Shown here: positions 5,238 through 29,072 of the stretch, piece by piece
How the letters are laid out: the number at the start of each line of letters is the position of its first letter
Numbering within the stretch: the stretch's first letter is position 1
Source of the DNA: Desulfobacterales bacterium
GTDB lineage: Bacteria > Desulfobacterota > Desulfobacteria > Desulfobacterales > UBA2156
Assembly (NCBI GenBank): GCA_011049715.1
Contig: DRHF01000029.1
Coordinates: 1 to 34,966, forward strand
Direction of reading: 5' to 3'
DNA: 34,966 nt
Program-made: the position numbers and the translations under genes
Notes under the pieces: generated by a model
The model's database searches: none
The model's input: only the letters and a program-made list of their open reading frames with translations
Told to the model about the DNA's origin: nothing

Positions 5238-5256
5238 TCCTCATTCTCACTCAGAA

Positions 5257-6126: not shown

Positions 6127-6229
6127 GCCGTCCGTCCCCTTTCTAAATATTCGGGACCGGGACATCTTGTGTCCCGATCCCGTCGATCATTTAATGCATT
6201 GAAATTATACCGCAATCACGATGGTGGCA

Positions 6230-7504
6230 TTACTTCATTTGATACCACATCTGATTCAATTTTTCCATGTGTTTGATATATACAACCTTGTGTTTTGCCC
6301 ACCATTTGGGTATGCTCTTGTACTCCACAATCCTGGCTCTGCCGTTTTGTATGGTCACCACCGGCCAGTTGCCCACAAGCGCATTGTTGATGCCCCAAAG
6401 CTCTTCGCCCCACCACTGTGCAGGTCCGAAAATATGCGGCAGGGTCGGCATGCTCTTCATGGACTTATACACGGCCATAGGCTCTACACTACCCGCTTTT
6501 TCGGCCCCCACCTTCCATAAGTCCATAATGGAGGCATACTCATATGAAACAGCCGTCCAGGAGGCCGGATGCTTTTTGTTGTACTCTTGGAAGAACTTGC
6601 TGGGGTTTTCGAAGCTTATGTTCGGTGCATTTAGGGCCGGGTCATCGAAATCCGGAAACTGGAAGATAAAGCCTTCCAGGAAATCCTTACTCGTTTTATC
6701 GATGATCGCCGGATAATTATCAAGAGTGCAGGATATCATCTTCCCCTTGTACCCCTGTTCATAAAGTTGCACACTCAGCAGGTTGACAAAATCCGAATAC
6801 GACGTATCCATGCAAAAGATATCCGGCTTTTTGGCCAGCAGCGACGTTACGATGGGGGCAAAGTCGGTCGTCGCCATGTCAAAGATATTTTCTCTGACCA
6901 CTTTAATTCCGGCTACTTCAAAAGCTGCCCGATAGGTCGCAACGGATGGAATCCCGAGCTCATCGTCCTGGGCGCAGATGACGGCGGTTTTCAGGCTTGG
7001 AAATTTCTCGGCCAACCATTCTACGCCTGTTACGTTATAGATGGGATGCACCTCGCATGGCGCCAGGTGATATGGAGAATCAGGATTCAGATCGCTGGGC
7101 AGCAAGGTGCTGGTAAGCATTTTTCTCCGTGTAAAAAACTTTTGTACTCCCGGCCATGTAGATCCCCCGAGCATCATGACGAATTTGACATCGTTCTCCG
7201 TAACCATCTTTTTGGCTCCCTGCAAGGCTTTATCCGGGAGGTACTCATTATCAAATGAGACAAACTCCACCATATAGTTGTCACCACCTATCTTAATCCC
7301 GCCGGCGGCATTAATCCATTCTGCCCAGATTTCGCATCCGTAAAGACCGGGCAGACCCCATCCGGCAACCTCGCCGGTGAGCGGTGCCAAAAAGCCGATT
7401 TTAACTGTTTTTTTTGCCCCAAAAACAGTGCTTGGCAGCCCAATTCCGGTTAACACCGCGCCTGCGGCAGCGGCCTTTATAAAATCTCTCCGTGTAATAC
7501 TCAT
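6230..7504 (-). CDS. Liv-type periplasmic substrate-binding protein with Tat signal
   Basis: A 424-residue type I periplasmic binding protein of the LivJ/LivK, amide and urea binding group. Residues 1-30 are a twin-arginine signal (TRRDFIK, then a hydrophobic stretch ending near VFGA), followed by the mature start VKIGFLAPLTGEVAGWG typical of the family. Tat export implies folding in the cytoplasm before secretion. The start ATG at 7504 has a strong GGGAGGGAAAG ribosome site. The gene lies 241 bases downstream of mttB and heads the transporter genes. Its family binds amino acids, amides, urea or similar small polar molecules. A methylated amine or quaternary ammonium substrate is my inference from location only; I did not identify an aromatic cage. 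Confidence 0.88.
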   Translation of the reverse strand: MSITRRDFIKAAAAGAVLTGIGLPSTVFGAKKTVKIGFLAPLTGEVAGWGLPGLYGCEIWAEWINAAGGIKIGGDNYMVEFVSFDNEYLPDKALQGAKKMVTENDVKFVMMLGGSTWPGVQKFFTRRKMLTSTLLPSDLNPDSPYHLAPCEVHPIYNVTGVEWLAEKFPSLKTAVICAQDDELGIPSVATYRAAFEVAGIKVVRENIFDMATTDFAPIVTSLLAKKPDIFCMDTSYSDFVNLLSVQLYEQGYKGKMISCTLDNYPAIIDKTSKDFLEGFIFQFPDFDDPALNAPNISFENPSKFFQEYNKKHPASWTAVSYEYASIMDLWKVGAEKAGSVEPMAVYKSMKSMPTLPHIFGPAQWWGEELWGINNALVGNWPVVTIQNGRARIVEYKSIPKWWAKHKVVYIKHMEKLNQMWYQMK

Positions 7505-7745
7505 AACTTTCCCTCCCTTTCGTCATTTCTGACAATGCCATTTTCGGCGGTAATGGAACGGGTGTGCAAATTCTATAAAATGTGCCGGACAATTTCCATG
7601 GCCTCCTTGGTCAAGAATCCGCCCCCACCTAATTTAAGGAATTTCGTCTCCATTTTATGATGCGCTGTCCTTGCATCATCCGGCAAAATGTAAATTTAAG
7701 ATTAATCAATAAACGGTTACGTTTGTAAAAGGCTTTGCTACGGAA

Positions 7746-9242
7746 TTAACCACTCTCTGCGGCCTTTGCCGCTTCTTCTTTCTCCAAAGCCTCCTGTTCT
7801 TCGATAATGGACCTTAGTTTGGACAACACGTCCTGCGGAAGCGGTGCCGGTTTATGGTTTTCCAAAATGTGTCGGGCTTCTTCACCGGCTGCCTCAGCCA
7901 GATCCTTGCCGCCACGTTTGTTCCATGCGCCCCGCATCCTCCGGTCGATCAGCTTTACTTTGGACTGTTCCGATGCCATAAATTGCCTCGTATGTTTCTG
8001 AGACAAAAAGTCCTTTCCGGCACCGACCTTTTTGATGGTTTCAACCGCCAAAAGATCATCGTTAATTCTCACGCCTTGAACCACCCTTTTTACCATAGCC
8101 GCAATTTCATTATCAATGACGAGCTGGGTCCAGCTGAAAGTCACACCTAACTCCAGCATGCCCATCCCGTATATCAAGTTTGCACCTGCCAAAGCAGGGA
8201 GCAGGGAGGTCATGGTTTTCTCATGTCCGGCCTGAGCATCGGACAGTTTGCTGTCAGCCTAGCTACCCGCTACATAGCTCGGTAGCATGTATTTGCGGGC
8301 CAATGCAACCACCCCGGCACTGATCATCCCCAGTTCCGGAGCCCCCACAGGCGCAGTCGCATAGGTCAGATCAAATGTCGTGGTGGAACTGCCGTAAATC
8401 ACAGGGGCTCCTTTTACCGTTAGCTGATTCAGGACAATACCTGCCAAAACCTCGGCATTGTGAGTGACCAGCGTACCAGCGATCGACACAGGAGCAGAAG
8501 CACCTGACATGGCCATGGACAATACATTTACAGGAATGCCGGCCTTGGCGCATTCAATGATTATTTCAGCTGTATGCGTGTGCAATTCCAGGGGGCTGGT
8601 TGGACAGACGAGAGCAGAAACCAAGGGTCGCTCCCTCAGTTTGTCCATGCCGCCAACAATGGCTGCAGCCATTTCAAAGAATTTTTTTGCGCCTGCGCCA
8701 CCGGTCAGATCGATATGATGGCAGTGCTTTGAAGTGTTGGTCAAAAAAGCCTCAGCCTCGTTTAGATCGGTCGCATACTCTACATCCCTGGCCACAACTG
8801 CACTCGAATAAATATCTACGTTTACCAAAGCATCACAGGCCAGAGCGGTGGCAGCAACATCCTTTTTGTTTGATTCACGATATTCTCCGGTAAAAGGGTC
8901 TATAACCATTACGCCGGCGCCAAACGAAGTAAAACCGACCCTGCCACCCTGAAGAGTTACATCATATTCAGGGGTTCGACCGGCCAACAAGATGGTACTG
9001 GGCGCCGAACGAATGGCATCCTCCACCAGGTGAGGGGCTATCTTAACGTGATTCCTCTCTCGATCCACAGAGGCGCCACCGTTTTCAAAAATATCCAGGG
9101 CCTCATCACAGTGCACACCCACGCCGTAGTTTTGAAGTACATCCAGTGTCGCCAGATGAATTTCACAAAGCTCGTCGTCCGTGAACATGTTCAAGCCCCA
9201 ACCTTCAAAGGTACTTATCCCAGGTTGAAGTCCTCGGTACAT
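7746..9242 (-). CDS. mttB: trimethylamine methyltransferase MttB with in-frame amber (pyrrolysine) codon 328
   Basis: Transfers a methyl group from trimethylamine to the cobalt of MttC, giving dimethylamine. The frame opens at the ATG at 9242 (perfect AAAGGAGGTGAT ribosome site), runs 327 codons to a TAG at 8259-8261, then continues in the same frame to TAA at 7746-7748. The joined product has 498 residues, essentially the size of methanogen MttB (about 495 residues, pyrrolysine near position 334). The residues before the amber (LPSYVAGS) and after it (ADSKLSDAQAGHEKT) fit the MttB active-site loop. Pyrrolysine-lacking relatives such as glycine betaine methyltransferase MtgB have a sense codon there. 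The N-terminal (beta/alpha) barrel pattern is intact, with no frameshift or other stop. The gene directly follows mttC (22-base gap). Confidence 0.95.
8259..8261 (-). other. in-frame TAG read as pyrrolysine in mttB
   Basis: The sense-strand codon is TAG, between AGC (Ser) and GCT (Ala). A small inverted repeat starts three bases after it: GACAG-CAAA-CTGTC (plus-strand 8242-8255). An alternative 6-bp stem pairs plus-strand 8224-8229 with 8240-8245. A downstream stem-loop resembles the PYLIS elements proposed for archaeal mtmB, but bacteria can decode TAG as pyrrolysine without one, so the stem may be incidental. Decoding needs tRNA-Pyl(CUA) and PylS, which are not in the window. Confidence 0.9.
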
Positions 9243-9263
9243 AAAATCACCTCCTTTACAATA

Positions 9264-9908
9264 TCATTTAAGTAGTTCTTTGGCCTTTAAAACCGTCTCA
9301 TTCACGTCCTCGGCATAACAGTCCGCACCGATTTTATTTGCCCATTCCTGCGTGCAGGCTGCGCCGCCGATCATGGTTTTAATTTTGTCCTTGAGGCCTT
9401 CCTTGCTGAGTTTTTCCTCAAGAATTTTTTGCCCACCCATTGTAGTGGTCATTAACGAAGATGAACCCACAATATCCGCATTGGTTTCCTTTGCTTTTTC
9501 AACAAAATCATTGATCGGTACATCCCTGCCCAGGTCATGTACTTCAAAGCCATAGACCCTGAGCATGGTTGCCACAATGCGTTTGCCGATATCATGAATG
9601 TCTCCCTCAACGGTTCCGATGACGATAGTGCCAAGCTTTTTCGCCATATCTTCCTTTGGAATGTGGGGTTCCATGATTTCTATGGCCTTGGTCATTGCTT
9701 CCGCAGCCACCAGAACCCCGGGCAGGGGAATCTCTTCGTTGGCAAAGCCGTCGCCTACCTGAGTCATTGCGGGCGTCAAAGCCTCATTAATGATTTCAAC
9801 AGGGTTGATACCCTCTTTAATGACCTGGTTCGCAACTTCCATGGCAGCTTCCTCATCACCATCGAGCACTGCCTGCATCCCCTGTTTTACCAGTTCTTCT
9901 TTACTCAT
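9264..9908 (-). CDS. mttC: trimethylamine corrinoid protein MttC
   Basis: A 214-residue cobalamin-binding methyl carrier. Residues 1-85 form the helical Met-synthase-type cap domain. The B12-binding domain follows with the base-off/His-on motif DIHDIG (residues 103-108), His105 being the lower cobalt ligand, plus the SSLMTTT and GGAA segments that hold the nucleotide loop. It sits directly upstream of mttB, its expected methyl donor partner, and downstream of ramA. A perfect anti-SD match (AAAGGAGGTGA) precedes the ATG. It accepts methyl from trimethylamine via MttB and passes it to an MtbA-type enzyme. The assignment to MttC rather than MtbC rests on adjacency to mttB. Confidence 0.9.
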   Translation of the reverse strand: MSKEELVKQGMQAVLDGDEEAAMEVANQVIKEGINPVEIINEALTPAMTQVGDGFANEEIPLPGVLVAAEAMTKAIEIMEPHIPKEDMAKKLGTIVIGTVEGDIHDIGKRIVATMLRVYGFEVHDLGRDVPINDFVEKAKETNADIVGSSSLMTTTMGGQKILEEKLSKEGLKDKIKTMIGGAACTQEWANKIGADCYAEDVNETVLKAKELLK

Positions 9909-10054
9909 TCAATCACCTCCTTTCCTATAATTTGGTTCTTTAGTTTTTGACAGCTTGTGTCTGCTTTTCCCACGCATAGCTATGACCAACAAATAGCAGA
10001 TAGACCCCGCTTTTTCAGTAATAATGCCGCCGGATACATAACACAAGGTAAAAC

Positions 10055-10657
10055 TCATCCCTTTTTCGTTTCCAATTCAACACCGACAATGACCGTACCC
10101 AGTCCTTTTTCATCCAGACCCTTGAAGTAATGTGTTTTCAGGTAGGTGTCAGAGGGAGTCGACGGATTGGCATAGATAATGGAATGGCACTTAAATTTTT
10201 TATCCTCTATGACGCACCAGGCCGCAGGGAGTGCCGGAATATCAAAGTGACAAATTTGTTTCATGATATCCTGGGGAAAAGAGATTTTATCCTTATAAAC
10301 AACAAAATTTTGATGCATAAACCAGACATTTTTCTGATTGGAAAGATCGGCAATGACTTTCTTGTCCCGCACTTCCTTCCCCACGATTTCATGCCCCTTT
10401 TTCAGGACCAGGGAGGAATCGCAACCCCAGTCAAAATCCATGTCTGTAAGGGCAATATAAATCAAGTCACATTGCAGTACCTCTTTCACACCCGAGTTGA
10501 CCACCTTGCCCAACCCCATAAGACCCTTTTCTTCCGCGTCCTTTTCAATCTCCAGAATGTTCCGGCGATCTCGGTCTGAAAAGGGGTGTGCTTTTACGAT
10601 TCCGGTTACCCTGTTCAAGGCCGAAATCATTACATCATCTGCTAGGTTTGTATCCAT
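10055..10657 (-). CDS. uncharacterised protein between ramA and mttC
   Basis: A 200-residue soluble protein I do not recognise. It starts seven bases after the ramA stop and precedes mttC, so it is embedded in the trimethylamine operon. No signal peptide or membrane helix is visible. There are cysteines at DFDWGCDSS, QICHF, PAAWCV and KFKCHS, but no regular Fe-S or zinc spacing. The N-terminal third is helical (RDRRNILEIEKDAEEKG) and the rest appears to be strands. Its placement suggests a job in corrinoid activation, trimethylamine sensing or methyltransferase assembly, but the sequence does not prove any of these. It ends in TGA, which overlaps a possible 49-codon ORF filling the space before mttC. 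Confidence 0.75.
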   Translation of the reverse strand: MDTNLADDVMISALNRVTGIVKAHPFSDRDRRNILEIEKDAEEKGLMGLGKVVNSGVKEVLQCDLIYIALTDMDFDWGCDSSLVLKKGHEIVGKEVRDKKVIADLSNQKNVWFMHQNFVVYKDKISFPQDIMKQICHFDIPALPAAWCVIEDKKFKCHSIIYANPSTPSDTYLKTHYFKGLDEKGLGTVIVGVELETKKG

Positions 10658-10663
10658 ATCCGA

Positions 10664-12379
10664 TTAATCCTGGGTCAGGGGGCAATCGTCGGTTGGGGCA
10701 GTAATCAGTTTAATCAAATTAAAGACCTTTTCCGAACAAGCGCGTTCACACCTCATGCAGGCAAACCCGTCGCATAACGCCAGATTTAAGGTGATCTGAA
10801 AGTCTTCCCCTTCTTCTCTCAACGCAAGGGCATTTTCCGGGCAGTCATCGATACAGGCCCTGCAACCTGTGCAACCCGGAAAACCGATGGTCTTTCGTTG
10901 TCCGATATCCGAGATAATCCTAAGGCCCATGGTGCCAAGGTCCGGAATATCTTTTTCTACGGTTTTGATGACCTCCGGATCCACACCGACCTCCTTTAAG
11001 GGAGGAAGCCCGAATTTTTTTAAAAATGTACGATACTGATTCAACGACAACCCTTCGGTCCAATAGGACAACTCTAAAATATAAATTTTTTCAAAAACCT
11101 TTGATTCAGCAAACATGCAGTGGGTTTGTCTCAAATCATCAGCAATCTGTTTCATATGCCAGAGTTCATCCTCATCCTTAACCATATCCCTGGCCATTGC
11201 AAGAGATGTGTTTCCGACCTGAAAGATTTTTTTGACCCCGGAAGGAATCATACCGATCGCCTGCGCTTTTAAAGCATCCACGTAGGTGCCGGAGGCCCCT
11301 GACATATATGCTGTTTCGATGTCTTCCATACGAATGCCCGCTTCCTGGCAGAGGCTCATGTGGCCTGCTCTGACCGCACCGATGGCCTTGCCCGCCTCTG
11401 CAAAGTCTTTTTCAGTAAATTTGATCCTGTTGGGTAGATTAATTTTTCCGTCCGGCGTTTTAATTCGCGGAATGCGAATAAGTCCTGATTTTAACCCCTC
11501 GCTAAGCAAAGCGACGACCCCGGTTCCGGTGATACCCACCGCATCAATCTTGCCTCTAGTGATCAATTTTCCTGTAATCGGGTCGACGGTATCCCCGGGA
11601 AGCGGCTCCATATTGTTATCGAGGACAAAGGTTTCGAGCACGCCACGGAGCGGTTTGTCAATTTCAGTGGTTAATGTCAACTCTGAGTTTATGTGATTTT
11701 CTGATATGAACGCCACATCGGAAATAGCGCCGGGTAATGCTAAAAGTCCATCTTCGATCTGCTGCCCCTCAAGAGCAGGTCCTGCCGCCGTTGACCCGGT
11801 ATAGACCACGCCGTCGACTAAGAGTGCCATCTCGGCATTTGTTCCGTAGTCTGTGGTTATGGCAATCTCTTCTTTTTCGAGCATGCCGGACTGAATCATC
11901 ATCGCCAGGGCATCGGCGCCGATCTCATGACGAATCGCCGGCGGAATCAGGACGTCGGTCTCTTCAGGTAGATCGAGCCCGCGAATTTCCGGGGCCTTTA
12001 CGATTTGGGCATCTCTTTTTGGCGGAACCACCCCAAGCGCTTTCAGTTTACGCTTGCCTGCATAGGCCAGGTCTCTAAACTCAATCTCCTGGAAAAGGGA
12101 AAGCTGGATAGGATTGCCACAGACAGCGACGCGTACGACCTGATCTTTTTTGATCCACAGGTTGTCGATAACTCGATTGATTGCCTGAACCATTACTTCG
12201 TGGGCCCAATTAAGACCCACATCAACAGCAAAATGGAGATGGTCCATGACATTGGCGCCGGGGAGGGGATGGCGGGTTGTAACTGAGGTGGAGAGAATTA
12301 TCCCTTTATTATCCAAATCGATGGCCTGGCCACGAAATCCACTGGTGCCCAGGTCCAATGCAATACCCAGTTTCGGCAT
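10664..12379 (-). CDS. ramA: RamA-type ATP-dependent activator of methylamine corrinoid proteins
   Basis: Reductively reactivates corrinoid proteins whose Co(I) has oxidised to Co(II), using ATP and low-potential electrons. The 571-residue product begins with the ASKHA phosphate loop ALDLGTSGFRG and has a second nucleotide motif TTDYGTNAEMAL and the DUF4445-like core. It ends with two [4Fe-4S] motifs: Cys503/506/509/513 and Cys536/541/544/548. This order (activator core, then C-terminal dicluster ferredoxin) is that of Methanosarcina RamA and unlike bacterial RACo, which has an N-terminal [2Fe-2S] domain. It lies 23 bases after mtbA and seven bases before the unknown 200-aa gene. The start is the ATG at 12379; its ribosome site is weak, so translation may be coupled to mtbA. 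Confidence 0.92.
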   Translation of the reverse strand: MPKLGIALDLGTSGFRGQAIDLDNKGIILSTSVTTRHPLPGANVMDHLHFAVDVGLNWAHEVMVQAINRVIDNLWIKKDQVVRVAVCGNPIQLSLFQEIEFRDLAYAGKRKLKALGVVPPKRDAQIVKAPEIRGLDLPEETDVLIPPAIRHEIGADALAMMIQSGMLEKEEIAITTDYGTNAEMALLVDGVVYTGSTAAGPALEGQQIEDGLLALPGAISDVAFISENHINSELTLTTEIDKPLRGVLETFVLDNNMEPLPGDTVDPITGKLITRGKIDAVGITGTGVVALLSEGLKSGLIRIPRIKTPDGKINLPNRIKFTEKDFAEAGKAIGAVRAGHMSLCQEAGIRMEDIETAYMSGASGTYVDALKAQAIGMIPSGVKKIFQVGNTSLAMARDMVKDEDELWHMKQIADDLRQTHCMFAESKVFEKIYILELSYWTEGLSLNQYRTFLKKFGLPPLKEVGVDPEVIKTVEKDIPDLGTMGLRIISDIGQRKTIGFPGCTGCRACIDDCPENALALREEGEDFQITLNLALCDGFACMRCERACSEKVFNLIKLITAPTDDCPLTQD

Positions 12380-12402
12380 TTGAATATTAAATCCGTGCTT
12401 AG

Positions 12403-13416
12403 CTAGTGGGCTTTGGCCACTTCAACCATGGCCAAAAGATTCTCGGTAGATGTACCCGGTGCCACCGCACATCCGGGGGCCAGAATCTGGATCCCGTCGG
12501 CAATGGACTTCTCACATGCCCGTTTGACCGTTTCAGCATCCTTCAAAAAGAGCGTTTGAGCCGTATCCGCACCACCCAGCATAATGGTATCCGGTCCACA
12601 TTTTTCCCGAGCTAGCCCGGCGTCGGCTTTCGGTTCCAGGCTTAAAATATCAGCTCCGGTCTGCCCCATCCATTCCACAATCCGGTCCACCTTGCCACAG
12701 ATGTGCAGAATTTTAGGGACAGAAATCGCATCGAACTGTTTCTTTTGATATTTCAATTCAACATCCCCGTAAGTTTTAGGAGCTATCAGTTCAGGCGAAG
12801 CGGTCATATCTTCACAGGAAATAATGTCAGCACCGGCCTCAATGAGCGCATTGGCAAGCGCGGTCCCTGCTTGTTCAGCGACATCCAGGAAGGGGGGAAT
12901 TTTTTCCGGTGTTTTAAAGGTTGCCTTAAGAAGAGGAACCGTATCTATGAGCGACCCGGCTATGGTAAAAGGCCCGATAATTCCGCCGATGATCGCCACC
13001 TCATCCCCGAGCTCCCCTTTCAGAATGCGAACCGCTTTAAGCAATTCCGGTATTTTACCCCGGGAAAGAAAGTCATCTGGAAACACAGGCACATCATCCA
13101 GGGTGTAAGGCGGTGGATGTTCAATTCCTGGAATTCCTTCATTCCCATCTACACCGCGCCCGGGTTTTACCTTACAGCCGAACGCCTCTGCCTCAAAGGT
13201 CTGGGAAAAGGGGACCCTAACAGCGTCAAAGCCAAGGACGGTGTAGGCAGCCATGGCCTGCTTGGCCATGGTCTCAGCATTTTCATGGCCTTCGGGCCAG
13301 AAAGCCTGCACTTTTTCCATTTGTTCGTAAGTTACGGTGGAATTGGCCCCTAAGCAGGGCATTCGATCCGGTTTTTGATGATTGATCACAGCCATCACCC
13401 GTTCTTTGGCATTCAT
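12403..13416 (-). CDS. mtbA: MtbA/MtaA-like methylcorrinoid methyltransferase (UroD family)
   Basis: A 337-residue uroporphyrinogen-decarboxylase-fold enzyme. It carries the zinc-thiol activating set HxC...C at His238, Cys240 (HICGK) and Cys316 (APGCAVAPG), as in MtbA and MtaA, which demethylate methylcorrinoid proteins onto coenzyme M in methanogens. A bacterium of this type is not expected to make CoM, so the acceptor may be tetrahydrofolate or another thiol; that is an inference. The gene is followed by ramA after 23 bases and ends in TAG; reading through would add about 34 codons overlapping ramA. A consensus AAAGGAGG ribosome site lies before the ATG at 13416. A true MtbA role is likely but the acceptor is unproven. 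Confidence 0.8.
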   Translation of the reverse strand: MNAKERVMAVINHQKPDRMPCLGANSTVTYEQMEKVQAFWPEGHENAETMAKQAMAAYTVLGFDAVRVPFSQTFEAEAFGCKVKPGRGVDGNEGIPGIEHPPPYTLDDVPVFPDDFLSRGKIPELLKAVRILKGELGDEVAIIGGIIGPFTIAGSLIDTVPLLKATFKTPEKIPPFLDVAEQAGTALANALIEAGADIISCEDMTASPELIAPKTYGDVELKYQKKQFDAISVPKILHICGKVDRIVEWMGQTGADILSLEPKADAGLAREKCGPDTIMLGGADTAQTLFLKDAETVKRACEKSIADGIQILAPGCAVAPGTSTENLLAMVEVAKAH

Positions 13417-13507
13417 TTAACTATCCTCCTTTGAAATGTATTGGCGCTTTCCATATGATGCCACAAGTGAACCCAATTAAATCTTACCGGTTGTTTCCCG
13501 GTTTGAT

Positions 13508-14338
13508 CTAGTTTAAGCATCTCAGAATAGCCCCGGCTATCTCGCTCTCATCCTCAATAAAGGAAAAATTGCCTTTGCCTCTCAGGGACAAACTCCGGAT
13601 TTTCTCTTCCTTGGCCGGTGGAAAACCGATAACATTGAGTTTGTCGAACCGGACTGCCGCTTCTAAGGGATCTCCCCCCCGGTTCCAGGCGCCGTCCGTC
13701 AGTATCAATCCTATTTTCCGCTCAAACTTATCGACATGTTTCAATCCCACTTCTAAAACCGAACGGATATCGGTATCCCCGCAAAGTTCTAAAGCAAACA
13801 GTCTTTCTAAAACCTCTTCAGGGCCTGTCTTTTCATCTATTGCCTTTAAAACAGAAACCCTGTTGCAGAACGCCAGCACCGCATAATCCCTTTTGAAATG
13901 TTGTGCAATGGAAGCGGCGGTGATGGCGGCCAGAATAATTTTCAAGCCTTTCATGGAATAACTATGGTCGAACATCATGACAAAGGCTTTTTTTTCCCTC
14001 TGCCTCTTATACGACACAAGATTTTCCAGTATCCCCCGTTCAGGCGCCTCGGTGTACTTTTCCAAGCTCTGGTCCAGTTCAATTTCGGCGCCGTCTGTAA
14101 AGCCCTGGACCAACTTGAGTTCGCCGGAACGGTATCCGGTATCGGCAATTTGTCTGGCTATTTTAATGATTAGCCGGCAGGCTATTTTTACGGCGAGCGC
14201 CCGCACATCACGTTTCAGCATCCCGAAAATATTAGCAAAAACCTCAAGCGAATCTTGTTTTTCAAAAAAAAGAGGGAGCTTTTCCGGGTGAGCGTTAAGA
14301 AAGGTAGCTATGCGATAAAAATAGGAACAGTGGGCCAT
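13508..14338 (-). CDS. von Willebrand factor A domain protein, partner of the MoxR ATPase
   Basis: A 276-residue soluble protein whose C-terminal half is a VWA domain with a complete metal-ion-dependent adhesion site: DHSYS (residues 124-128), Thr189 within GDTD, and Asp215 in LTDGAWN. The N-terminal 110 residues are helical and carry no known domain. Genes of this type pair with MoxR-like AAA+ ATPases, and the pairs act as chaperones or metal-cofactor inserters (CbbQ/CbbO, NorQ/NorD, magnesium chelatase I/D). The MoxR gene is immediately upstream with a 23-base gap. The role in a methylamine cluster is not established; maturation or activation of corrinoid or Fe-S methyltransferase complexes is a reasonable guess. 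The gene ends in TAG, with TAA seven codons later. Confidence 0.85.
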   Translation of the reverse strand: MAHCSYFYRIATFLNAHPEKLPLFFEKQDSLEVFANIFGMLKRDVRALAVKIACRLIIKIARQIADTGYRSGELKLVQGFTDGAEIELDQSLEKYTEAPERGILENLVSYKRQREKKAFVMMFDHSYSMKGLKIILAAITAASIAQHFKRDYAVLAFCNRVSVLKAIDEKTGPEEVLERLFALELCGDTDIRSVLEVGLKHVDKFERKIGLILTDGAWNRGGDPLEAAVRFDKLNVIGFPPAKEEKIRSLSLRGKGNFSFIEDESEIAGAILRCLN

Positions 14339-14361
14339 TTCATCGCTCAGAAACTGATCCC

Positions 14362-15354
14362 CTACGTAACGATTTTTTTTTTTACCCGTTGTTCCTCTTC
14401 TGATTCTTTTTCTTGAACCCCGTTGTCTAATGACGATTTTGCAGTCGCGTTTTTTTGAGGACGCAGCAGATCAGGGTATTGATTTCGAAGGCCGGCATAG
14501 ACTTCCTCGATGATTTCATCGGCGGTTTTGGACGCCATTTCATTGAGCCAAACTTTATTGGAAATCGCCATAAAAGCCGTTGTCAAAAAATGGCTGTCAG
14601 GTTGATCGTCCAGTTTCTGCATGCCGACAAATAGGTCAACCACGTCAATGGCGCCCCTGATCGAAGCGCCCAATTTGATATCGGGGTGTTCTCTTGTTTT
14701 TCGCACCATCTTGACCGACAGATCGACGATTTCAGACGAATCCATTCCGGTCCGAAGCCGGACAATCTCCCTCTCTTCGGCCTCGTTCTGATAATTCATT
14801 TTAATCAAGCAAATACGATCCATAAATGCCCTGCTGATCCTGACCGTGCCCACATCATCATACGGATTTTGAGCAGCTATCACGGTAAACGGAGATACGG
14901 CCTTAACGGTTCCATACCTGGGAATCGATATTTCTCTCTCTTCCATAGGGGATATCAGCACATTGGAAACATCTGCCGGCATCCGGTTGAATTCCTCGAT
15001 GTAAAAGATTCCACCCTCTTCCATTGCCCTTGTAAGAGGGCCTTTTTCAAAATACTCGGGTTTATAGCTATCCTCCATTACCTGGGACGGGTTGAAATGC
15101 CCAACCAGTTTGGCGGGTGTCAGATCGATGTTGCCTTCCACAAGATAAAAAGGGATCTCGGCTTCATGGGAAATTTTTCGCAGCAAAGTGGATTTGGATG
15201 TTCCGGGCGGTCCTTCCAAAAGGATGTGTTTTCCCGCATTCATTGCCGTTAATATGGATTTGATTTCGATTTCTCTGCCGACTACACCCCGGGCAACCTT
15301 AGCGTGTATTCGAAGCAGATCCATTTTTTTCTGTGATGTTAATGTCAATTTCAA
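14362..15354 (-). CDS. MoxR family AAA+ ATPase
   Basis: A 330-residue AAA+ ATPase with Walker A GPPGTSKS (residues 48-55), a Walker B-like IFYIEE sequence, sensor 1 in AAQNPYDDVG, and an arginine-finger region RISRAFMDR. The Walker B acidic pair is EE rather than DE. The C-terminal 40 residues are charged and low-complexity. MoxR proteins remodel client complexes together with VWA partners; the adjacent VWA gene fits that. The start is probably the TTG at 15354 (AAAGGAAG just upstream); an ATG at 15321 is an alternative. The stop is TAG, followed four codons later by TGA. The gene lies between DUF2284 and the VWA gene, in the middle of the methyltransferase island. Confidence 0.88.
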   Translation of the reverse strand: MKLTLTSQKKMDLLRIHAKVARGVVGREIEIKSILTAMNAGKHILLEGPPGTSKSTLLRKISHEAEIPFYLVEGNIDLTPAKLVGHFNPSQVMEDSYKPEYFEKGPLTRAMEEGGIFYIEEFNRMPADVSNVLISPMEEREISIPRYGTVKAVSPFTVIAAQNPYDDVGTVRISRAFMDRICLIKMNYQNEAEEREIVRLRTGMDSSEIVDLSVKMVRKTREHPDIKLGASIRGAIDVVDLFVGMQKLDDQPDSHFLTTAFMAISNKVWLNEMASKTADEIIEEVYAGLRNQYPDLLRPQKNATAKSSLDNGVQEKESEEEQRVKKKIVT

Positions 15355-15414
15355 ATGCTTCCTTTCCTGCTCAATTGAAGTGAGCTTGATTCCAAGTGTT
15401 GTATCCGGCCTGGC

Positions 15415-15996
15415 TCAGACCAGTACCAACCCGATAAAGCTGACCTGTTTTTTCGGAGGCCATTCCACCATTGCGCCTGCTTCCCTGGCCAGTTCAGTTA
15501 TGTCGATACCAAACCCCTCCGGACTGGGACGGGCTTTGAATGGATGGTGACACCGCTTCCCCGGTGGGGTGCATTCTTTGCACAATTTACAACCGCCTAC
15601 GCACAGGCCTATGGCCAAATAGTAGCCATGTTCAAAGGCGGTTCGTTCCAGATCTGATACAATTTGTGATAGCTTTAATTCAGCACTAAAGTCGTTCCGA
15701 TATATATCGATATCTTTGATTTTTTCTCTTAAAATCACCAAAAAAGCCTTGGTATAGCTTTTTAGGGCTTCACTGAATTCTGTAACACTCGGGATATTCG
15801 GTGGGCAAACCTTACAAACATCGTAGTATTCACACAAAGGGATCTGACATTTTAAGCGAACACTCTGTGCCGGTTTTATTTTTTTGACGTCAAAGGGGTG
15901 GACGTCAACCCCCCGTTGTTGGGCCAGGGCTTTAAAGGAATCCTCTAAAGCGATGTGTTTATCGGTGTTAACCTTATTCAATACCTTGACGGACAT
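15415..15996 (-). CDS. DUF2284 predicted metal-binding protein
   Basis: A 193-residue cysteine-rich protein with the DUF2284 hallmark: KCQIPLCEYYDVCKVCPPN near residues 49-67, and CVGGCKLCKEC (about 131-141) followed by CHHPFKARPSPEGFGID. The cysteine blocks suggest Fe-S clusters or zinc. Family members are frequent in anaerobes and methanogens beside corrinoid methyltransferases, but no activity has been assigned that I can name. It lies downstream of mtbB and upstream of moxR on the same strand, 182 bases after the mtbB stop. It could be an electron carrier for corrinoid reactivation; this is inference only. Confidence 0.85.
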   Translation of the reverse strand: MSVKVLNKVNTDKHIALEDSFKALAQQRGVDVHPFDVKKIKPAQSVRLKCQIPLCEYYDVCKVCPPNIPSVTEFSEALKSYTKAFLVILREKIKDIDIYRNDFSAELKLSQIVSDLERTAFEHGYYLAIGLCVGGCKLCKECTPPGKRCHHPFKARPSPEGFGIDITELAREAGAMVEWPPKKQVSFIGLVLV

Positions 15997-16178: not shown

Positions 16179-17579
16179 TTAAAATTTCATTTTGTTTTTT
16201 AACCGAGTTACACAATTGATTTCGATCCCTAGCAGTTCGGCGATGCGCACTTTGGCTTCAATTCCCTTGGCACAACCCGGAACGGACGTAATGATTCCAA
16301 TGTCCAGCTCCTCGCGGACCTCCCTCATTACATGCACGTCTGACAGGTCGAAAGGAGATACCTTGAGCTTTTCGGCAACATAGGCTTTGGCATCGTCGAT
16401 CCGCATCCTGCGGGCCATCTGCATACGGACCACCAGATCTCCGGCAGTCCTGATTCCGCCTATTCCGCCTGCTACTACATGAGCTATCGACATCCCCATC
16501 GGATCACCCACACCAACCTACAAACCGTCCACATTGGCGATCTCCACCATGGCTTTCGTGGCCCTGCTCACGGAATCGATCGGGGGAGTTTCAAAGACCG
16601 GCGATCCGCCCACACCCATTCCCATGTTGACATGGATCGGAATGTTGGATGTTTCCACACAGGCCTTAACAAAAGTGACCGCCCTTCCCAGGTTCCATGC
16701 CATGGATTTACTCGGTTTGGTGTTGACAACCGGACCGAAAATATCCGCACCGGCTTTTTCGGCTACCTCAACCTGTTTATGACAGTACAAACCGGCCAGC
16801 CGCTCTCCATCGTATTCCAGTTCGCCGTGCATACCCAGAATAAATTCCCCGGCCATGCCAACTTGAATGCTTAAATTGGTGGTCTTTTTAAGATGCTCTA
16901 CCGCATGCATTGTCGCTTTGAAATCCGGATCGCCCGCAGCTCCGGTCGTGTCAAAGTTGATGCCGTCAATACCGATATCAGACATCGCTTCGGAAATATA
17001 AATCATATCTCTGGTAGCGTGTTCCACAGCACTTTCCTGGGCTTCTTTGGCCTCTTTGATCTTACCCATCGGCAAAAGATCTGAAGGGTTCCCAAAGGGT
17101 CCATCCGGGCTGTAATAAAGGCCCAGGTTTGGCATGGCACCGTAAAATAGCGGTAAGATGGTACTCAACAGGGCATTTTCAGCTTCTTGTTGTTCCATTG
17201 TAATTACCGGCTTTATCGGTTTAAAGCTGTAATCGATATGTCCCAGTTCCATCGAATCAGCGCAAAGCGCTCTTTCGTGGACCTGAATTCCCTGCACCCT
17301 GCCGATCGGAATTCCCACACCGCTGTTGCCCTGATCTCCCATTAATCGTAAAGTGCCGATATCATGTGTTAGCGGTACTTCTTTACCCGGTTCCACACTG
17401 ACAAATTTATTGGGATTGGTGAAAATATCCTGCAAATGGTCGAGTTCATCTTTTGGCAAGGGTGATATCTTCCCCCTATCGGCGGCGTCTTCTGTACCGA
17501 TTTCAAAATCCCGCATCAATTCGTCCGCGGTCATTTCTATAAAGGCCCCGTCACCCCGACGAGTGAGGTATTTCTTCAT
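16179..17579 (-). CDS. mtbB: dimethylamine methyltransferase MtbB with in-frame amber (pyrrolysine) codon 354
   Basis: Transfers methyl from dimethylamine to the corrinoid protein MtbC, yielding monomethylamine. From the ATG at 17579 (AAAGGAGGTG ribosome site), 353 codons run to a TAG at 16518-16520, and the same frame continues 112 codons to TAA at 16179-16181. The joined length of 466 residues matches archaeal MtbB (about 467, with pyrrolysine near 356). The context [13 protein letters not shown] is the MtbB active-site region as I know it. A caller restarting at the GTG at 16511 would report a spurious 110-aa gene. The MtbB family does not share sequence with MttB, so this is a second, independent amber-decoded family. 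No other stop or frameshift is present. mtbC lies 14 bases upstream. Confidence 0.95.
16518..16520 (-). other. in-frame TAG read as pyrrolysine in mtbB
   Basis: The sense-strand codon is TAG, preceded by GAC GGT TTG (DGL) and followed by GTT GGT GTG GGT GAT CCG (VGVGDP). The residues after the stop are as conserved-looking as those before it, the frame is kept, and the true end is a TAA. This is the same arrangement as the pyrrolysine codon of archaeal mtbB. I see no strong hairpin immediately after it, unlike in mttB. Confidence 0.9.
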
Positions 17580-17593: not shown

Positions 17594-18238
17594 TCAGCTA
17601 AATATTTCTTTGAGTTTCATCACAGTGTCTGAAGCGCTTTCAGCGTGAAGATCCGCACCAATTTTGGAGGCCCAGTATTCGGTTGTTGCTGCGCCACCGA
17701 CCATAGTCTTAACCTTGTCCCGAAGCCCCTCTTCTTTTAAGGCGGCCTCCAGCTTTTTCTGGCCAACCTGGGTGGTTGTCATCAAAGCCGATGACCCGAC
17801 AACATCCGCACCCACCTCCTTGGCCTTCTGAACAAAATTATCTATCGGAACATCCCGCCCAAGATCAAAAACTTCAAACCCATAAACTCTCAACATTGTG
17901 GCGACAATACCTTTGCCAATGTCATGCACGTCACCTTCAATAGTCCCCAGCACAACTTTGGCCAGTTTTTTACCCACTTGGTCTGCAGGCATGGCCTGCT
18001 CCAGGATTTTTACCGCTGCAGTCATCGCTTCGGAGGCTATGATGAGGTGCGGCAGGAAGATTTCACCCCGATCAAACAGATCGCCCAGTTTTTTAATTCC
18101 TTCGGAAAGCCCGTTTTCGACCATATCTGCTGGATCGAAGCCTCCTTCTAGATACTTTTTAGCCAATTCCACCACACCTTCCTCATCCGCGTCTATGATA
18201 TACTGTGCGGCTTTTTCCATAAATTCTTCTCGATTCAT
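17594..18238 (-). CDS. mtbC: corrinoid protein (dimethylamine MtbC-like)
   Basis: A 214-residue B12-binding methyl carrier, closely similar to the MttC-like protein encoded at 9264-9908. It has a helical cap, then DVHDIG (residues 103-108) with His105 as cobalt ligand, SSALMTTTQ and [11 protein letters not shown]. It is placed directly before mtbB, with its stop 14 bases from the mtbB start, so it is the expected acceptor of the dimethylamine methyl group. A perfect AAAGGAGGTGA ribosome site precedes the ATG at 18238. The 318-base region upstream carries a candidate sigma-70 promoter, so mtbC may begin a separate transcript from the upstream acs genes. Confidence 0.88.
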
Positions 18239-25154: not shown

Positions 25155-25694
25155 TTATCCTTTTTTGGCTGCTTGCTCTCCGCCTTCTGATTCGGTTTTC
25201 TCTTTGATCTCTATTTTCAGATTCACCAGGACTTCATCCACTTTAGTGGAAGTCATTTTCGGATAGATTTTTTCTCCGATCACCATCACAGGCGCCAGAC
25301 CGCAGCATCCGACGCAGGCGACCCGGTCGAGACTGAACTCTTTATCCTCTGTAATTCCACCCACTTCGATATCCAAGGCCCTTTCCAAACCCTCCAGGAC
25401 CAGACCCCCGCCAACCATATGGCAGGCAGTCCCCATACACATCTGGATAGGATTTTTTCCAAGCGGGGTGAACCGGAAATGGTTATAAAAAGAGGCCACC
25501 CCAAAGATCTGCGCATCGGTCATTTCCAGGTGGGAGCTGACGGCGAGTATCGCCTGTTTGGGAAGATAGCCAAATGTTTCCTGAACCTTTTGCAAAATGG
25601 GTATTAATTGACTTCTATCCTTCTCGCATTGGACAAATATCTCGGTGAGTTTTTCATCTATTTGATCAGCTTCTTCATTTGTCTGGACCGTCAT
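25155..25694 (-). CDS. NuoE/HoxE/HydC-like [2Fe-2S] subunit
   Basis: A thioredoxin-like [2Fe-2S] protein of about 179 residues. Ligands are Cys86 and Cys91 (CMGTAC) and Cys127 and Cys131 (CVGCC), the standard NuoE spacing. A helical N-terminal domain of about 80 residues is present. The ATG at 25694 overlaps the acsC stop as ATGA and follows a GGAAGG site, so I chose it over the GTG at 25706. It transfers electrons to or from the NuoF-like subunit. Since the NuoF-like protein has lost its own N-terminal cluster, this protein may be the only [2Fe-2S] entry point on that side. Confidence 0.9.
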   Translation of the reverse strand: MTVQTNEEADQIDEKLTEIFVQCEKDRSQLIPILQKVQETFGYLPKQAILAVSSHLEMTDAQIFGVASFYNHFRFTPLGKNPIQMCMGTACHMVGGGLVLEGLERALDIEVGGITEDKEFSLDRVACVGCCGLAPVMVIGEKIYPKMTSTKVDEVLVNLKIEIKEKTESEGGEQAAKKG

Positions 25695-27043
25695 GATACC
25701 TTCCACTCCTCTGACAAGAATTTTGGAATATCACTTCCTTCCAGTGGACCAAAAATGATCTCCCACCCGGGAAGCTCTTCTTCCAACTCGTCTTTTAGCT
25801 TTCTGGCCACGCCCGGGATGATAAGTTTGCGATGTTTCACCCTATCCTGGATATTGTGTGTGTTGAGAAAATCGGCAATCGATTCTCCGTTAAACTTACC
25901 GGATGTCCATGCCGCCATGACCCCTAACCCCTCTGTATCCTTTATACATAGATAGGCCGGCATGCCGGTTTCTTCGATGGCCGCAGACACAATAAAAAAG
26001 TCCAATGCATAGTTCGTGGAAATAAGAATAGGTGCATCTTCACCGGGGTTGCTTATTTCGTAAATCTTTTCTTCGACGGTCATCGGTCTGCGGGGATCGC
26101 TGTAGATATTGAACCGGTGGACCAAAAGAGGTAAAAGGAAGTTCGTATCCACCTGCGACAGCACGACGATGCCGGCATATTTTGTAATGAGCGCAGCCGC
26201 CGCCAGGGTTTCCTTAAGCGGGTCCGAGTACATGCTACACGGAAAGGTTATGGTCGGATACCCCAAGGGTCGAAATCCCTTTTTGAGCGCCGCGCGTCTG
26301 ATAAAGGTCTGGTCACCGATTGCCTGCAATATGTTATCGGAGCAAGGATCGAGAAGGGATTCTTCAATACCGGCCGCCTTGAGATCAGCAGTGATCTCGG
26401 CTATCTCATCCAGGTTTTTCCCTTTTACCCCTGCGACAACGCCCAGTTCCTTGAGCTTTGGAATCAAGGTGTCCACATTCTCTTTTGTGATGGGGTAGGC
26501 GAGCGGCTTGCGGTCGGCACAGAGAGTAACTGCCGACAGCAGCACATCGGTATCGTCGGCGATTAAAATCAAACCAAAATCCGTGGTTTCGTAAACTCTT
26601 TTAACCAAAGCCTCGAATCTGTCACGTTTCCCGGACTCAAACGAAAGGGCCAAAAGATTAATCTCAAGTTCCTGCCCGATCCGCTCAAATCGAAACGATT
26701 TTATGGTGTTCAGTCTGGTTTCAATCTCCGATTCATTCTCCTTGTCGGAAATTAAAATGGCAATGCCGGTCTGATGAAAAAAAGTCTTTTCATGGCGGAA
26801 CATGACCTCTTCTTCACCTAGTTCCAGTGCCTTTTGACCGGTCCCGATCGTCACCCGTTTGATGGGGGGTGCCATGGATGCATCCAATTCATTTCTGGCT
26901 TCGGGAGAGAGATGAGGACAAGCTTCAATTTTAATTCCTCCGGTGGCCAGTTTCATCGCAAATGCAAAGCAGGTGGCAAGACCACAGTCTTTGCAGTTGG
27001 TTTTGGGTAATTTTTTCATTATGTCGGCGCCCTTTAGAGCCAT
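25691..27043 (-). CDS. acsC: corrinoid iron-sulfur protein large subunit (AcsC, CdhE-like)
   Basis: A 450-residue gamma subunit of the corrinoid Fe-S protein of the acetyl-CoA pathway. It carries methyl groups from methyl-pterin to acetyl-CoA synthase or back. Near the N-terminus are the [4Fe-4S] ligands Cys17, Cys20, Cys25 and Cys42 (NCKDCGLATC). A TIM-barrel region and a C-terminal corrinoid-binding domain follow; no DxHxxG motif is expected in this family. An AGGAGG site precedes the ATG at 27043. It follows acsD with a 44-base gap and overlaps the NuoE-like gene by four bases. acsA and acsB (CODH/ACS) are not in the window. Confidence 0.93.
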   Translation of the reverse strand: MALKGADIMKKLPKTNCKDCGLATCFAFAMKLATGGIKIEACPHLSPEARNELDASMAPPIKRVTIGTGQKALELGEEEVMFRHEKTFFHQTGIAILISDKENESEIETRLNTIKSFRFERIGQELEINLLALSFESGKRDRFEALVKRVYETTDFGLILIADDTDVLLSAVTLCADRKPLAYPITKENVDTLIPKLKELGVVAGVKGKNLDEIAEITADLKAAGIEESLLDPCSDNILQAIGDQTFIRRAALKKGFRPLGYPTITFPCSMYSDPLKETLAAAALITKYAGIVVLSQVDTNFLLPLLVHRFNIYSDPRRPMTVEEKIYEISNPGEDAPILISTNYALDFFIVSAAIEETGMPAYLCIKDTEGLGVMAAWTSGKFNGESIADFLNTHNIQDRVKHRKLIIPGVARKLKDELEEELPGWEIIFGPLEGSDIPKFLSEEWKVS

Positions 27044-27087: not shown

Positions 27088-27990
27088 TTATTCAGATATG
27101 ATTTCTTTTATCAATTTAAGTGCATCCGGGTGCCTCAGTACAATGAGGTTAGCCCCTCCTAAAAGAAACGTCATTCCGGTGATGGCCTCCCAAAGAATTC
27201 CCATGGTTTGACTCTGTTTTGCCTCCTTGGTCCGCCAACAGTCCATTCCAACATCTGCAAAGATCGGCATCAGCATCATTTTATCCCGATCCTTGAGGCC
27301 GAATTGCTTAATTTCTTCAATGATGGAAAAGGTATATTCCATCCCATATCCCAAAGCAGATGATGTCGGATCGATGACAATTTTATCCGCGGGGAAAAAT
27401 TTACAAAGGACAATGTTCAGTTCTTTCGTCAAGTTCGCATCCATGGAAGCCTGAGCAACAACACTGTGGCCATGTTCCAGGGCTGCTTTGGCAATTTCTT
27501 CGTAATTACCTTTCAACATCGGACCCAGCAGAAGATTCTTCTCCGCACACGCCTGTGCCACGGCCGTCAGAACCTCTATGTCCTTTTCTTCGGCCCCTGT
27601 TCCCCATACAATAAGGGGAACATCAACGGCACCGTTCACCCGGGTTACAACCTCGGCTGCATGTTGTGGTGAGGTGTCATGCCCCAATGGATCGGTGCTT
27701 GCAAGACGAAGAAAAAGGATCTCAGCGCCATATAGCTCCACACATTTTTTGGCCCAATCGGCTGGGTCGGAAATGACGTCTGAAAAAGGTTCGAGAATTG
27801 CCGGCGCCCAATTTTCAGGTTCCATGTCCAGGATTTCCATGGCAAGACCCGGTGAATTGGGAAGCAATCCTTCAAAAGAATGAAAGGGAAGCGTGTTTTC
27901 GCCCCCGATCCTCTTAACATTTTTTCCTTGTCCCAGCGCTGTTTCCCTGATGCTCACCGAATATTTTTCCAAGGGTAATTCAAATGTCAT
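27088..27990 (-). CDS. acsD: corrinoid iron-sulfur protein small subunit (AcsD, CdhD-like)
   Basis: A 300-residue delta subunit with TIM-barrel type strands such as VPLIVWGTGAEEKD and DKIVIDPTSSALGYGMEY, the latter near the barrel's C-terminal end as in AcsD/CdhD. It pairs with AcsC to hold the cobamide. No Fe-S ligands are expected or seen. An AAGGAGA ribosome site lies before the ATG at 27990. It is separated from acsE by about 200 bases containing a palindromic repeat-like element, and it is followed by acsC. Identity is based on family motifs and on the gene order acsE-acsD-acsC. Confidence 0.92.
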   Translation of the reverse strand: MTFELPLEKYSVSIRETALGQGKNVKRIGGENTLPFHSFEGLLPNSPGLAMEILDMEPENWAPAILEPFSDVISDPADWAKKCVELYGAEILFLRLASTDPLGHDTSPQHAAEVVTRVNGAVDVPLIVWGTGAEEKDIEVLTAVAQACAEKNLLLGPMLKGNYEEIAKAALEHGHSVVAQASMDANLTKELNIVLCKFFPADKIVIDPTSSALGYGMEYTFSIIEEIKQFGLKDRDKMMLMPIFADVGMDCWRTKEAKQSQTMGILWEAITGMTFLLGGANLIVLRHPDALKLIKEIISE

Positions 27991-28193: not shown

Positions 28194-29072
28194 CTATACT
28201 TCCAGCCAGGAATGTGAATAGAGGCTCTTCCCCATGAGGACCTGAGCCGTTTTAACATATTCCTGTTCCGACTGGTTCAGCGAAGAGAGATCGATGTCCT
28301 CTTCATCCATGGCGCGGTAAATAAGTTCGACGGTTTCCGGCATGTCGCCCTTAACCAGACGAATGAGTTCCTGATCAAAACCGCTTACGATGCTGGAATG
28401 CATTCCGTATCTGCCCACTATCACTAAAAAAGTACGGTTGAGCAAACTTTTTAAGGCCTTCGGTGCACCAAAGCACAGGTTGGACAACCCGCAGGTCGAT
28501 TTGACCCCTGGTCCCAAATCCTGCAGCATCTGGATAAATTCCAAAAATGCCGTTATCTGACGTTGATCGACTCCGATCGGCAGAAGAACCGGATCGACCC
28601 AAATATTCTCATTGGGAATTCCCAGTTCGTTCGCCGCATCAATGGATTCCATAATACTGGCCGCTCTTTCATCTGCATCTGACGGCAGCCCGGCGTCATT
28701 CATGACCGAAAGCACAACGTCGGCCGAGTATTTGGAGGCTAGCGGCAACATGGTTGCCTTGCTATCGGCTGTACCGGAAGCGGAATTGATCAGCGCCTTT
28801 TTTGTGCAAGCTTTAAGGCCTGCCTCCATGGCCACAGGGTTTGTCGTATCCAAGCACAATGGGAGTTCAGTGCAGGCCTGTACCGTGTTCACGATCCAAT
28901 CCATGGCCCCCTCCGGGTCTTTCCTTACCGGGCCCACATTAATATCCAAATAGTCCATGCCATTTTGGGTCTGTTCCTTGACAAGAGTCTGGATCGGTTC
29001 ATCATTTCGCTCTTTTATGGCCTGAGAGATCTGCTTGGACATCACGTTTAAGTCTTCGCCGATTAAAATCAT
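28194..29072 (-). CDS. acsE: methyltetrahydrofolate:corrinoid Fe-S protein methyltransferase (AcsE-like)
   Basis: A 292-residue pterin-binding TIM-barrel enzyme (dihydropteroate synthase fold) that exchanges methyl between methyl-THF and a corrinoid protein. Motifs are MILIGEDLNV at the start, DYLDINVGP (about residues 55-63), LCLDTTNPVAMEAGL, the Asn/Asp-rich barrel ends VLSVMNDAGLP and WVDPVL, and STCGLSNLCFG late in the barrel. It is slightly longer than the 262-residue Moorella enzyme. GGAGGGAG precedes the ATG at 29072. It ends in TAG at 28194-28196, and readthrough would add 68 residues. It begins the acs gene run, just downstream of the two-component pair. Confidence 0.9.
   Translation of the reverse strand: MILIGEDLNVMSKQISQAIKERNDEPIQTLVKEQTQNGMDYLDINVGPVRKDPEGAMDWIVNTVQACTELPLCLDTTNPVAMEAGLKACTKKALINSASGTADSKATMLPLASKYSADVVLSVMNDAGLPSDADERAASIMESIDAANELGIPNENIWVDPVLLPIGVDQRQITAFLEFIQMLQDLGPGVKSTCGLSNLCFGAPKALKSLLNRTFLVIVGRYGMHSSIVSGFDQELIRLVKGDMPETVELIYRAMDEEDIDLSSLNQSEQEYVKTAQVLMGKSLYSHSWLEV

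Follow-up and report, generated by a model that had tools for sequence, protein, structure and literature searches.

The gene mtbB, for a dimethylamine--corrinoid methyltransferase, lies at 16179..17579 on the minus strand of the window, by which we mean the whole 34,966-nucleotide stretch of Desulfobacterales DNA that was analysed. Read from 17579 to 16179 with TAG taken as a residue, it yields 466 amino acids and contains a single TAG, at codon 354 (16518..16520, minus strand), where homologues and reading frame alike place a putative pyrrolysine (Pyl); this codon sits between ...NVDGL and VGVGDPMGM. The original prediction gave the right coordinates, length, amber codon and flanks; it left out the strand, and the plus strand across 16179-17579 is interrupted by many stops. 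The product matches TIGR02368 with 635.8 bits (cut-off 369.1) over residues 3-461 and PF09505 with 735.9 bits (cut-off 25). Its AlphaFold2 model has a mean pLDDT of 90.0 and places residue 354 within a strand formed by residues 352-355. The best matches of this model in the PDB are mostly barrel proteins and are weak (TM relative to query length 0.30-0.35, 8 with E <= 0.001). No Pyl enzyme is among the 50 PDB matches listed, and a sequence search of solved structures with MtbB gave no match at E <= 0.01.

The corrinoid-protein, methyltransferase, RamA and CODH/ACS genes around mtbB are also encoded on the minus strand. Directly upstream lies a gene for an MtbC-type corrinoid protein (17594..18238), which scores 248.2 bits against TIGR02370 (cut-off 215.3) and 248.6 bits against the MtbC equivalog NF041607, below the cut-off of 350. 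Further along the island we found genes for an MttC-type corrinoid protein (9264..9908; TIGR02370, 246.3 bits), a RamA-type corrinoid activase (10664..12379; TIGR04270, 763.7 bits) and a methyltransferase assigned by its profile to the MtaA/MtbA family, whose frame ends in TAG (12403..13416). Homologues of the CODH/ACS gamma subunit (25691..27043) and delta subunit (27088..27990) are accompanied by a homologue of methyl-THF:corrinoid methyltransferase, whose frame also ends in TAG (28194..29072). The interval from the MtaA-like gene to mtbB (13508-15996) encodes a MoxR-type ATPase, a CoxE-like VWA protein and a DUF2284 protein, and positions 10055-10657 encode a 200-aa protein to which no Pfam or NCBIfam profile matched. 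As had been claimed, mtbB is one of two candidate amber-decoded genes in the island: mttB, for a trimethylamine--corrinoid methyltransferase (7746..9242, read from 9242 to 7746; TIGR02369, 737.3 bits), has its own single TAG, at codon 328, the predicted Pyl residue. BLASTP between MtbB and MttB found nothing (best E 0.078), so that the two are unrelated in sequence, again as claimed; the archaeal proteins likewise lack mutual similarity, according to PMC9842639.

In order to follow the amber codon across the family, we aligned 91 distinct full-length mtbB genes (67 bacterial and 24 archaeal rows), drawn from 61 named-genome loci and from further genome loci; 5 longer partial hits and fragments under 200 codons were left out. 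The amber column holds TAG in 90 genes and TCG in one. The proposed alignment to archaeal MtbB thus places TAG in one column in 90/91 homologues, 24 of the 91 rows being archaeal, and upholds the argument that the amber is not a chance mutation. The TCG (Ser) copy is a full-length gene (locus L130, 2157-3545, plus strand, G353:C365) in which Val replaces Asp351, a residue conserved in the other rows. No PylS was detected in its genome, which is 81% complete, and the TCG may stem from a sequencing error.

Selection was compared before and after the TAG in 64 close pairs drawn from the 90 TAG rows (53 distinct rows, from bacteria and archaea; rows are shared between pairs, which are thus not independent). 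The median omega was 0.080 before the TAG and 0.124 after it (range 0.044-0.564), and omega after the TAG was below 0.5 in 63 of the 64 pairs. An initial run over 457 pairs (median 0.456 before and 0.392 after, maximum after 0.811) was dominated by divergent high-GC pairs, and the analysis was therefore repeated on these closer ones. Saturation of its synonymous sites upstream of the TAG keeps the window mtbB out of all 64 pairs; compared with the six rows nearest to it, it differs at nonsynonymous sites by 0.100-0.128 before the TAG and by 0.094-0.113 after it. Together with the omegas of the pairs, these values indicate that the part beyond the TAG is constrained about like the part before it; the loss of downstream selection that had been named as grounds for rejecting read-through is not seen. 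That the TAG is a true stop or an inactivating mutation, with only a 353-aa fragment made, might be read from the neighbouring genes, which appear to use TAG as an ordinary stop; this explanation is nevertheless scarcely credible in view of the TAG common to homologues across domains, the low omega beyond it and the full pyl set in the genome.

The host genome is a metagenome-assembled genome (MAG) of 5.38 Mb in 461 contigs, 94.78% complete with an estimated contamination of 5.35%. Neither its pyl genes nor its tRNA-Pyl are in the window; they are located on contigs C240 and C42. Contig C240 encodes PylSc (332.8 bits), PylB (489.5), PylC (433.8), PylD (232.3) and PylSn (128.4), each above its NCBIfam cut-off. 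The tRNA-Pyl on contig C42 was found by a motif search and then called by ARAGORN with the anticodon cta (CUA); its cloverleaf fold has an energy of -36.7 kcal/mol (z -4.0). The original prediction would have fallen with an absence of pyl genes, and the genome has the five proteins and the tRNA. An ARAGORN scan of the window and of four other stretches (L007-L010) called no tRNA, and Rfam RF01858, tried as the tRNA-Pyl family, was rejected as it turned out to be another family. In the class sample of 389 genomes, an MtbB match (fragments included) was found in 37 and PylS at E <= 1e-30 in 55. PylS occurs in 30 of the 37 MtbB-matching genomes; of the 7 in which it was not found, one (G268) is 96% complete and the others are 69-84% complete.

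Six full-length mtbB genes are present in the host genome, with exactly one TAG each, along with a 52-residue end fragment located where a contig stops. The genome also has at least 7 mttB-family genes with TAG, three of which were seen through the stem-loop motif described below; the two most distant of these three share 40% and 43% identity with the window MttB across almost the full length. The genome thus holds at least 13 methyltransferase genes with TAG. A protein tree places the window MtbB beside three Desulfobacterota-type sequences (support 0.971), and the enclosing clade also takes in sequences titled as Firmicutes and Actinomycetota (0.982). These clade relatives are 72-82% identical to the window MtbB, while the other copies of its own genome are only 52-62% identical; judging from the tree and these identities, horizontal transfer of the window mtbB is likely.

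A reduced version of the island occurs in a genome of the same genus, G005 (locus L131, G005:C26, about 3400-15187), with the gene order around ramA unchanged. It lacks mttB and its corrinoid gene, the adjacent transporter genes and the CODH/ACS part; mtbB retains only its first 120 or so residues, and the following DUF2284 gene is likewise broken. The MoxR-type ATPase and CoxE-like VWA genes are retained, and the 200-aa protein adjoins ramA there too. Elsewhere, G005 carries two other full-length mtbB genes with TAG, and PylS. As the break near residue 120 lies far upstream of the TAG, the loss of mtbB at this locus is irrelevant to read-through. These data also bear on the provenance of the contig. 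A MAG in 461 contigs with 5.35% contamination, and with 5.38 Mb against 2.9 Mb for G005, could include a mis-binned contig foreign to the genome that carries the pyl genes. We consider this highly improbable here, since G005 shares the gene order around ramA, a remnant of mtbB with its corrinoid gene, and PylS, and since five other full-length one-TAG mtbB genes lie on other contigs of the host genome.

We put at about 93% the joint probability that the window carries a functional bacterial mtbB, that its codon 354 TAG is read as Pyl by the cell's own machinery and that the enzyme has a role in methyl transfer, a reading built on sequence comparison. The TAG would be read by the cell's tRNA-Pyl together with PylSc/PylSn, and Pyl would be supplied by PylB, PylC and PylD. 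MtbB would hand the methyl group of dimethylamine to the adjacent MtbC-type protein, RamA would hold the corrinoid in its reduced state, and the methyl group would probably enter the island's Wood-Ljungdahl enzymes, a pathway drawn from the families of the encoded proteins. The protein resembles known MtbB with Pyl (TIGR02368 / PF09505) in its length, its match to the whole profile, the archaeal position of its TAG and its adjacent corrinoid gene. It differs in its bacterial host, in a PylS split into PylSc and PylSn and in the Wood-Ljungdahl homologues of the island. As a gene it is not new, because deltaproteobacterial Pyl versions have already been reported: according to PMC8318568, most of the listed Deltaproteobacteria that use both Pyl and Sec have a dimethylamine methyltransferase with in-frame Pyl.

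In the host, TAG seems still to serve as an ordinary stop codon. The stops of 100 long non-overlapping mechanical ORFs from contigs of the host genome are 40 TAA, 33 TAG and 27 TGA, Pyl codons being counted as stops in this tally. Six family-supported genes of the window end in TAG, as judged by the extension of the frame when the TAG is read through. Several MtbB genes carry another in-frame TAG close to the C-terminus, for example an own-genome copy with TAG at codons 349 and 462. We infer that the cell must distinguish both uses of TAG or tolerate competition between them.

Synonymous codon choice was profiled in six MtbB clades of at least 4 rows. In three of them the peak falls at codons about 369-395, with values of 0.259 (null 95% maximum 0.141), 0.345 (0.172) and 0.303 (0.231). 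The archaeal clade has its peak on the TAG (0.204, null 0.150), and two clades of 7 and 4 rows did not exceed the null. Measured against the genes' own codon use, the four most biased of 115 conserved columns in bacterial mtbB are 380, 353, 381 and 382. Codon 380 is GGA in all 67 rows (expected 0.18), codon 381 is GAT in 64/67 and codon 382 is CTG in 61/67 (expected 0.43 for each). Codon 353, directly 5' of the TAG (16521..16523, minus strand), is TTG in 55 of the 64 bacterial rows with Leu (expected 0.14), and the codon before the TAG in archaeal mtbB is ATA in 20/22 rows (expected 0.23). This codon is thus nearly fixed in mtbB, far from the genes' own codon use; in mttB it is variable.

Codons 378.3-383.3 form a conserved 6-bp hairpin with an AGAU loop (16431..16446, minus strand), located +74 to +89 nt from the T of the TAG. 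All 6 pairs form in the window copy. The loop is AGAU in 64 and AGAC in 3 of the 67 bacterial rows; the pair 379.3-382.3 is CG in 54 rows, TG in 7, GC in 3, TA in 2 and CC in 1, and the pair 378.3-383.3 is formed in 59. Of the 8283 6-bp hairpins that mtbB could form, this one alone (with its loop-6 register) has all pairs in at least 80% of the 67 rows. Its mean paired fraction of 0.957 (66 rows) was reached by none of 100 synonymous permutations, whose maximum was 0.836. The covariation score (0.239 versus 0.080) and the number of double-change cells (15 versus 3.0) lie above all 500 shuffles in 54 thinned rows, although these shuffles, like those used for mttB below, do not preserve relatedness; the count of pairs with double changes is not above the shuffles (147/500 as high). 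The pair 378-383 ranks first of 2509 third-position pairs in covariation, with 25 and 22 parsimony changes on its two sides, and the pair 379-382 ranks 36th.

Folding energies point in the same direction. On a coarse grid of 149 windows in 30 sampled rows, the hairpin came first, narrowly, in stabilisation relative to synonymous recoding (-1.27, next -1.16 kcal/mol); the exact window, codons 377-384, gave -3.42 over 66 rows, 61 of them lying below their own recodings. RNAalifold predicted four pairs of the hairpin unprompted. Newer loci supplied 23 further mtbB rows, 5 of them identical to the first set and 18 with at most 88% DNA identity to it. All 18 of these out-of-set rows have GGA; 14 are fully paired, and the other 4 lack the outer pair only. 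On comparative grounds, these data show selection at synonymous sites on the bacterial mtbB hairpin 74-89 nt 3' of the UAG, and we consider it very probable that the hairpin is a real selected RNA structure. Two other readings of the motif were rejected. An internal Shine-Dalgarno start at GGAG is disfavoured because the next Val codon is GTG in only 39/67 bacterial mtbB rows and because position four of the mttB hairpin loop is not constant; pairing of the motif with the nucleotides immediately 3' of the TAG is disfavoured because these vary.

In mttB, the equivalent position is +68 to +83 nt from the TAG (8178..8193, minus strand in the window), where the window copy forms 4/6 pairs around an AGGU loop. 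This hairpin has 6 bp, and its loop starts with AGG (AGGN) in 89 of 102 bacterial Pyl rows. Among 190 columns compared in 48 such rows, codon bias is strongest at 351, which is TTG in 43/48 (expected 0.18), and 352, which is GCA in 43/48 (0.22); the sliding maximum of codon bias falls at these same columns (0.144 versus 0.113). Of 8859 possible hairpins in the 48 rows, two have all pairs in at least 80%: the one at +68 and a weaker one at -310. The best hairpin has a mean paired fraction of 0.907 over 102 rows, against a synonymous-permutation maximum of 0.830 (0/100 reached it). Its covariation score (0.122 versus 0.086) and double-change cells (17 versus 5.4) exceed all 500 shuffles in 80 thinned rows, whereas the number of pairs with double changes (145/500) and of pair types (374/500) does not, and the outer pair 350-355 ranks only 46th of 2661 in covariation. 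Relative to synonymous recoding in 30 sampled rows, the hairpin window is the most stabilised of 233 (-2.71, next -1.00 kcal/mol); RNAalifold, unprompted, predicted no mttB pairs.

At least 5 of the 6 mttB pairs form in 40/43 Desulfobacterota-type, 31/32 Actinomycetota-type and 15/27 Firmicutes-type rows, and 39, 20 and 12 rows respectively are fully paired; the groups were set by source, namely the class of the window genome, the class of G393 and the phylum of G389, plus named loci. The Actinomycetota-type genes have a mean GC content of 67%, and TTG makes up 6% of their Leu codons and GCA 6% of their Ala codons, yet TTG stands at column 351 in 28/32 of them and GCA at column 352 in 32/32. 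A search of the host genome for the exact stem-loop gave 6 occurrences; in 5 of these, the stem-loop follows the TAG of an mttB-family gene at a distance of exactly 69 nt. One mismatch added 7 more, including the window mttB; a reversed control pattern gave 8 matches in total. A similar hairpin at 68-83 nt is thus shown, by sequence comparison, in most of the bacterial mttB rows examined, and quite probably it too is a real selected RNA structure.

We weighed whether a constraint at the DNA level, such as a binding site or a recombination hot spot, explains the synonymous conservation without any RNA structure. The mtbB core, GGAGATCT, includes a short palindrome, which speaks for such a constraint. 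Third positions nevertheless co-vary in a way that keeps the pairs, with a U-G wobble as the outermost pair in 15/54 rows and standard pairs of four kinds at 379.3-382.3, and the mttB core differs in sequence from the mtbB core. A DNA-level constraint is therefore very unlikely.

Parts of these structures are covered by existing models. Rfam RF02509 (PYLIS_2) matches 16421..16520 on the minus strand with 76.6 bits (gathering 36), and its consensus already holds the mtbB hairpin, with the loop at model positions 81-84; the difference is that codon use and covariation here back the hairpin in bacterial and not in archaeal mtbB. RF02510 (PYLIS_3) matches a 100-nt region of the window mttB (8162..8261, minus strand, 85.2 bits, gathering 38), but its consensus structure is without the +68 hairpin. 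A 2013 comparative study describes canonical structures for mtbB and mtmB, unlike each other, and none for mttB (PMC3639795). Among the titles and abstract openings returned by our searches of open literature, none reports a hairpin common to mtbB and mttB. What is new is a hairpin of one build 3' of the TAG in the unrelated mtbB and mttB; the original prediction had noted neither of the two.

The same scans were applied to related and neighbouring genes. In archaeal mtbB (24 rows), no 6-bp hairpin has every pair in at least 80% of rows, no covariation was detected in 17 thinned rows (440/500 shuffles as high), and the hairpin window is less stable than its recodings (+0.49 kcal/mol, 9/24 rows below their own recodings). 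None of 3 archaeal mttB rows has at least 5/6 pairs, and none is fully paired. Among the Pyl-less MttB relatives, 0/10 rows are fully paired and one forms 5 of 6 pairs; their hairpin window differs from recoding by +0.33 kcal/mol, with 5/10 below. One Pyl-less relative lies beside the pyl cassette (L007, 4801-6285, plus strand) and has GCT (Ala) at the Pyl position; because it scores 592.1 bits against TIGR02369 (cut-off 525), this profile does not separate Pyl from Pyl-less MttB.

No conserved hairpin was found in the MtbC/MttC-type corrinoid genes of the bacterial loci (32/60 permutations as good; two queries with 45 rows each, mostly of the same family) or in PylSc (22 rows, 53/60). For PylB (12 rows), 1/60 permutations reached the best hairpin. 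The controls with MtaA-like genes (5 rows, 14/60), PylC (3 rows, 24/60) and RamA (1 row) are too small to tell. Bacterial mtmB (6 rows) has no common hairpin, so that the hairpin is not in all three bacterial families of Pyl methyltransferases. Three mtmB rows (L178, L172 and L076) could form a hairpin with an AGGU loop and conserved codons at about +111 to +124 nt from the TAG, which is absent from 4 other bacterial and 6 archaeal mtmB rows. In six genomes we also observed members of the MtmB family whose genes lack a TAG (L008, 6363-5011, minus strand, G000:C213, and loci L173-L177). Proteins of this Pyl-less branch are 66-97% identical to the host's own copy and 34-37% identical to Pyl MtmB, have His at the Pyl position and, in L008, adjoin a corrinoid gene.

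The role of the hairpins can be viewed in two ways. They may serve a purpose other than decoding, for instance in mRNA stability or processing, as a site for a regulator of methylamine genes or as a translational pause for folding, and we give this explanation about an even chance. The stretch covered by a ribosome paused at the UAG ends short of 68-90 nt downstream, and the hairpins thus lie past it; mtmB, the third Pyl family, is without a common hairpin, and the TCG copy of mtbB in L130 retains its own. A non-decoding purpose accounts less readily for a hairpin in two unrelated Pyl families at a near-equal distance from the UAG, for its lack of full pairing in the Pyl-less MttB relatives and for the corrinoid-protein genes without a conserved hairpin at the same loci. 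Alternatively, the hairpins would act in cis in UAG decoding, favouring Pyl insertion over termination, a possibility that we advance tentatively. Bacterial SECIS elements, which are likewise hairpins 3' of a recoded stop codon, are bound by SelB and lie closer to their codon than 68-90 nt; we know of no dedicated factor for the mtbB and mttB hairpins. PMC8318568 describes the bacterial SECIS as a hairpin of about 50 nt next to the UGA, in contrast to the hairpins here, which lie 68-90 nt from the UAG.

A more specific form of the decoding role can be proposed, which we regard as rather doubtful when its parts are taken jointly. An AG-initial tetraloop hairpin about 70-90 nt 3' of the UAG would mark the mtbB and mttB messages in bacteria that use UAG both as Pyl and as a stop. 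The mark would have arisen separately in mtbB and mttB, and would have been kept in Desulfobacterota, Firmicutes-type and Actinomycetota lineages while missing in archaea and in Pyl-less relatives. A factor acting in trans would bind the mark and favour insertion over termination.

It has long been asked whether the message must carry a signal for the insertion of pyrrolysine, as it must for selenocysteine. A hairpin of like build in two unrelated bacterial families, with the negative controls described above, provides a specific and easily tested candidate for such a signal. It could aid genetic-code-expansion systems, and it could explain how at least 13 TAG-bearing methyltransferase genes remain usable amid the ordinary TAG stops of this genome.
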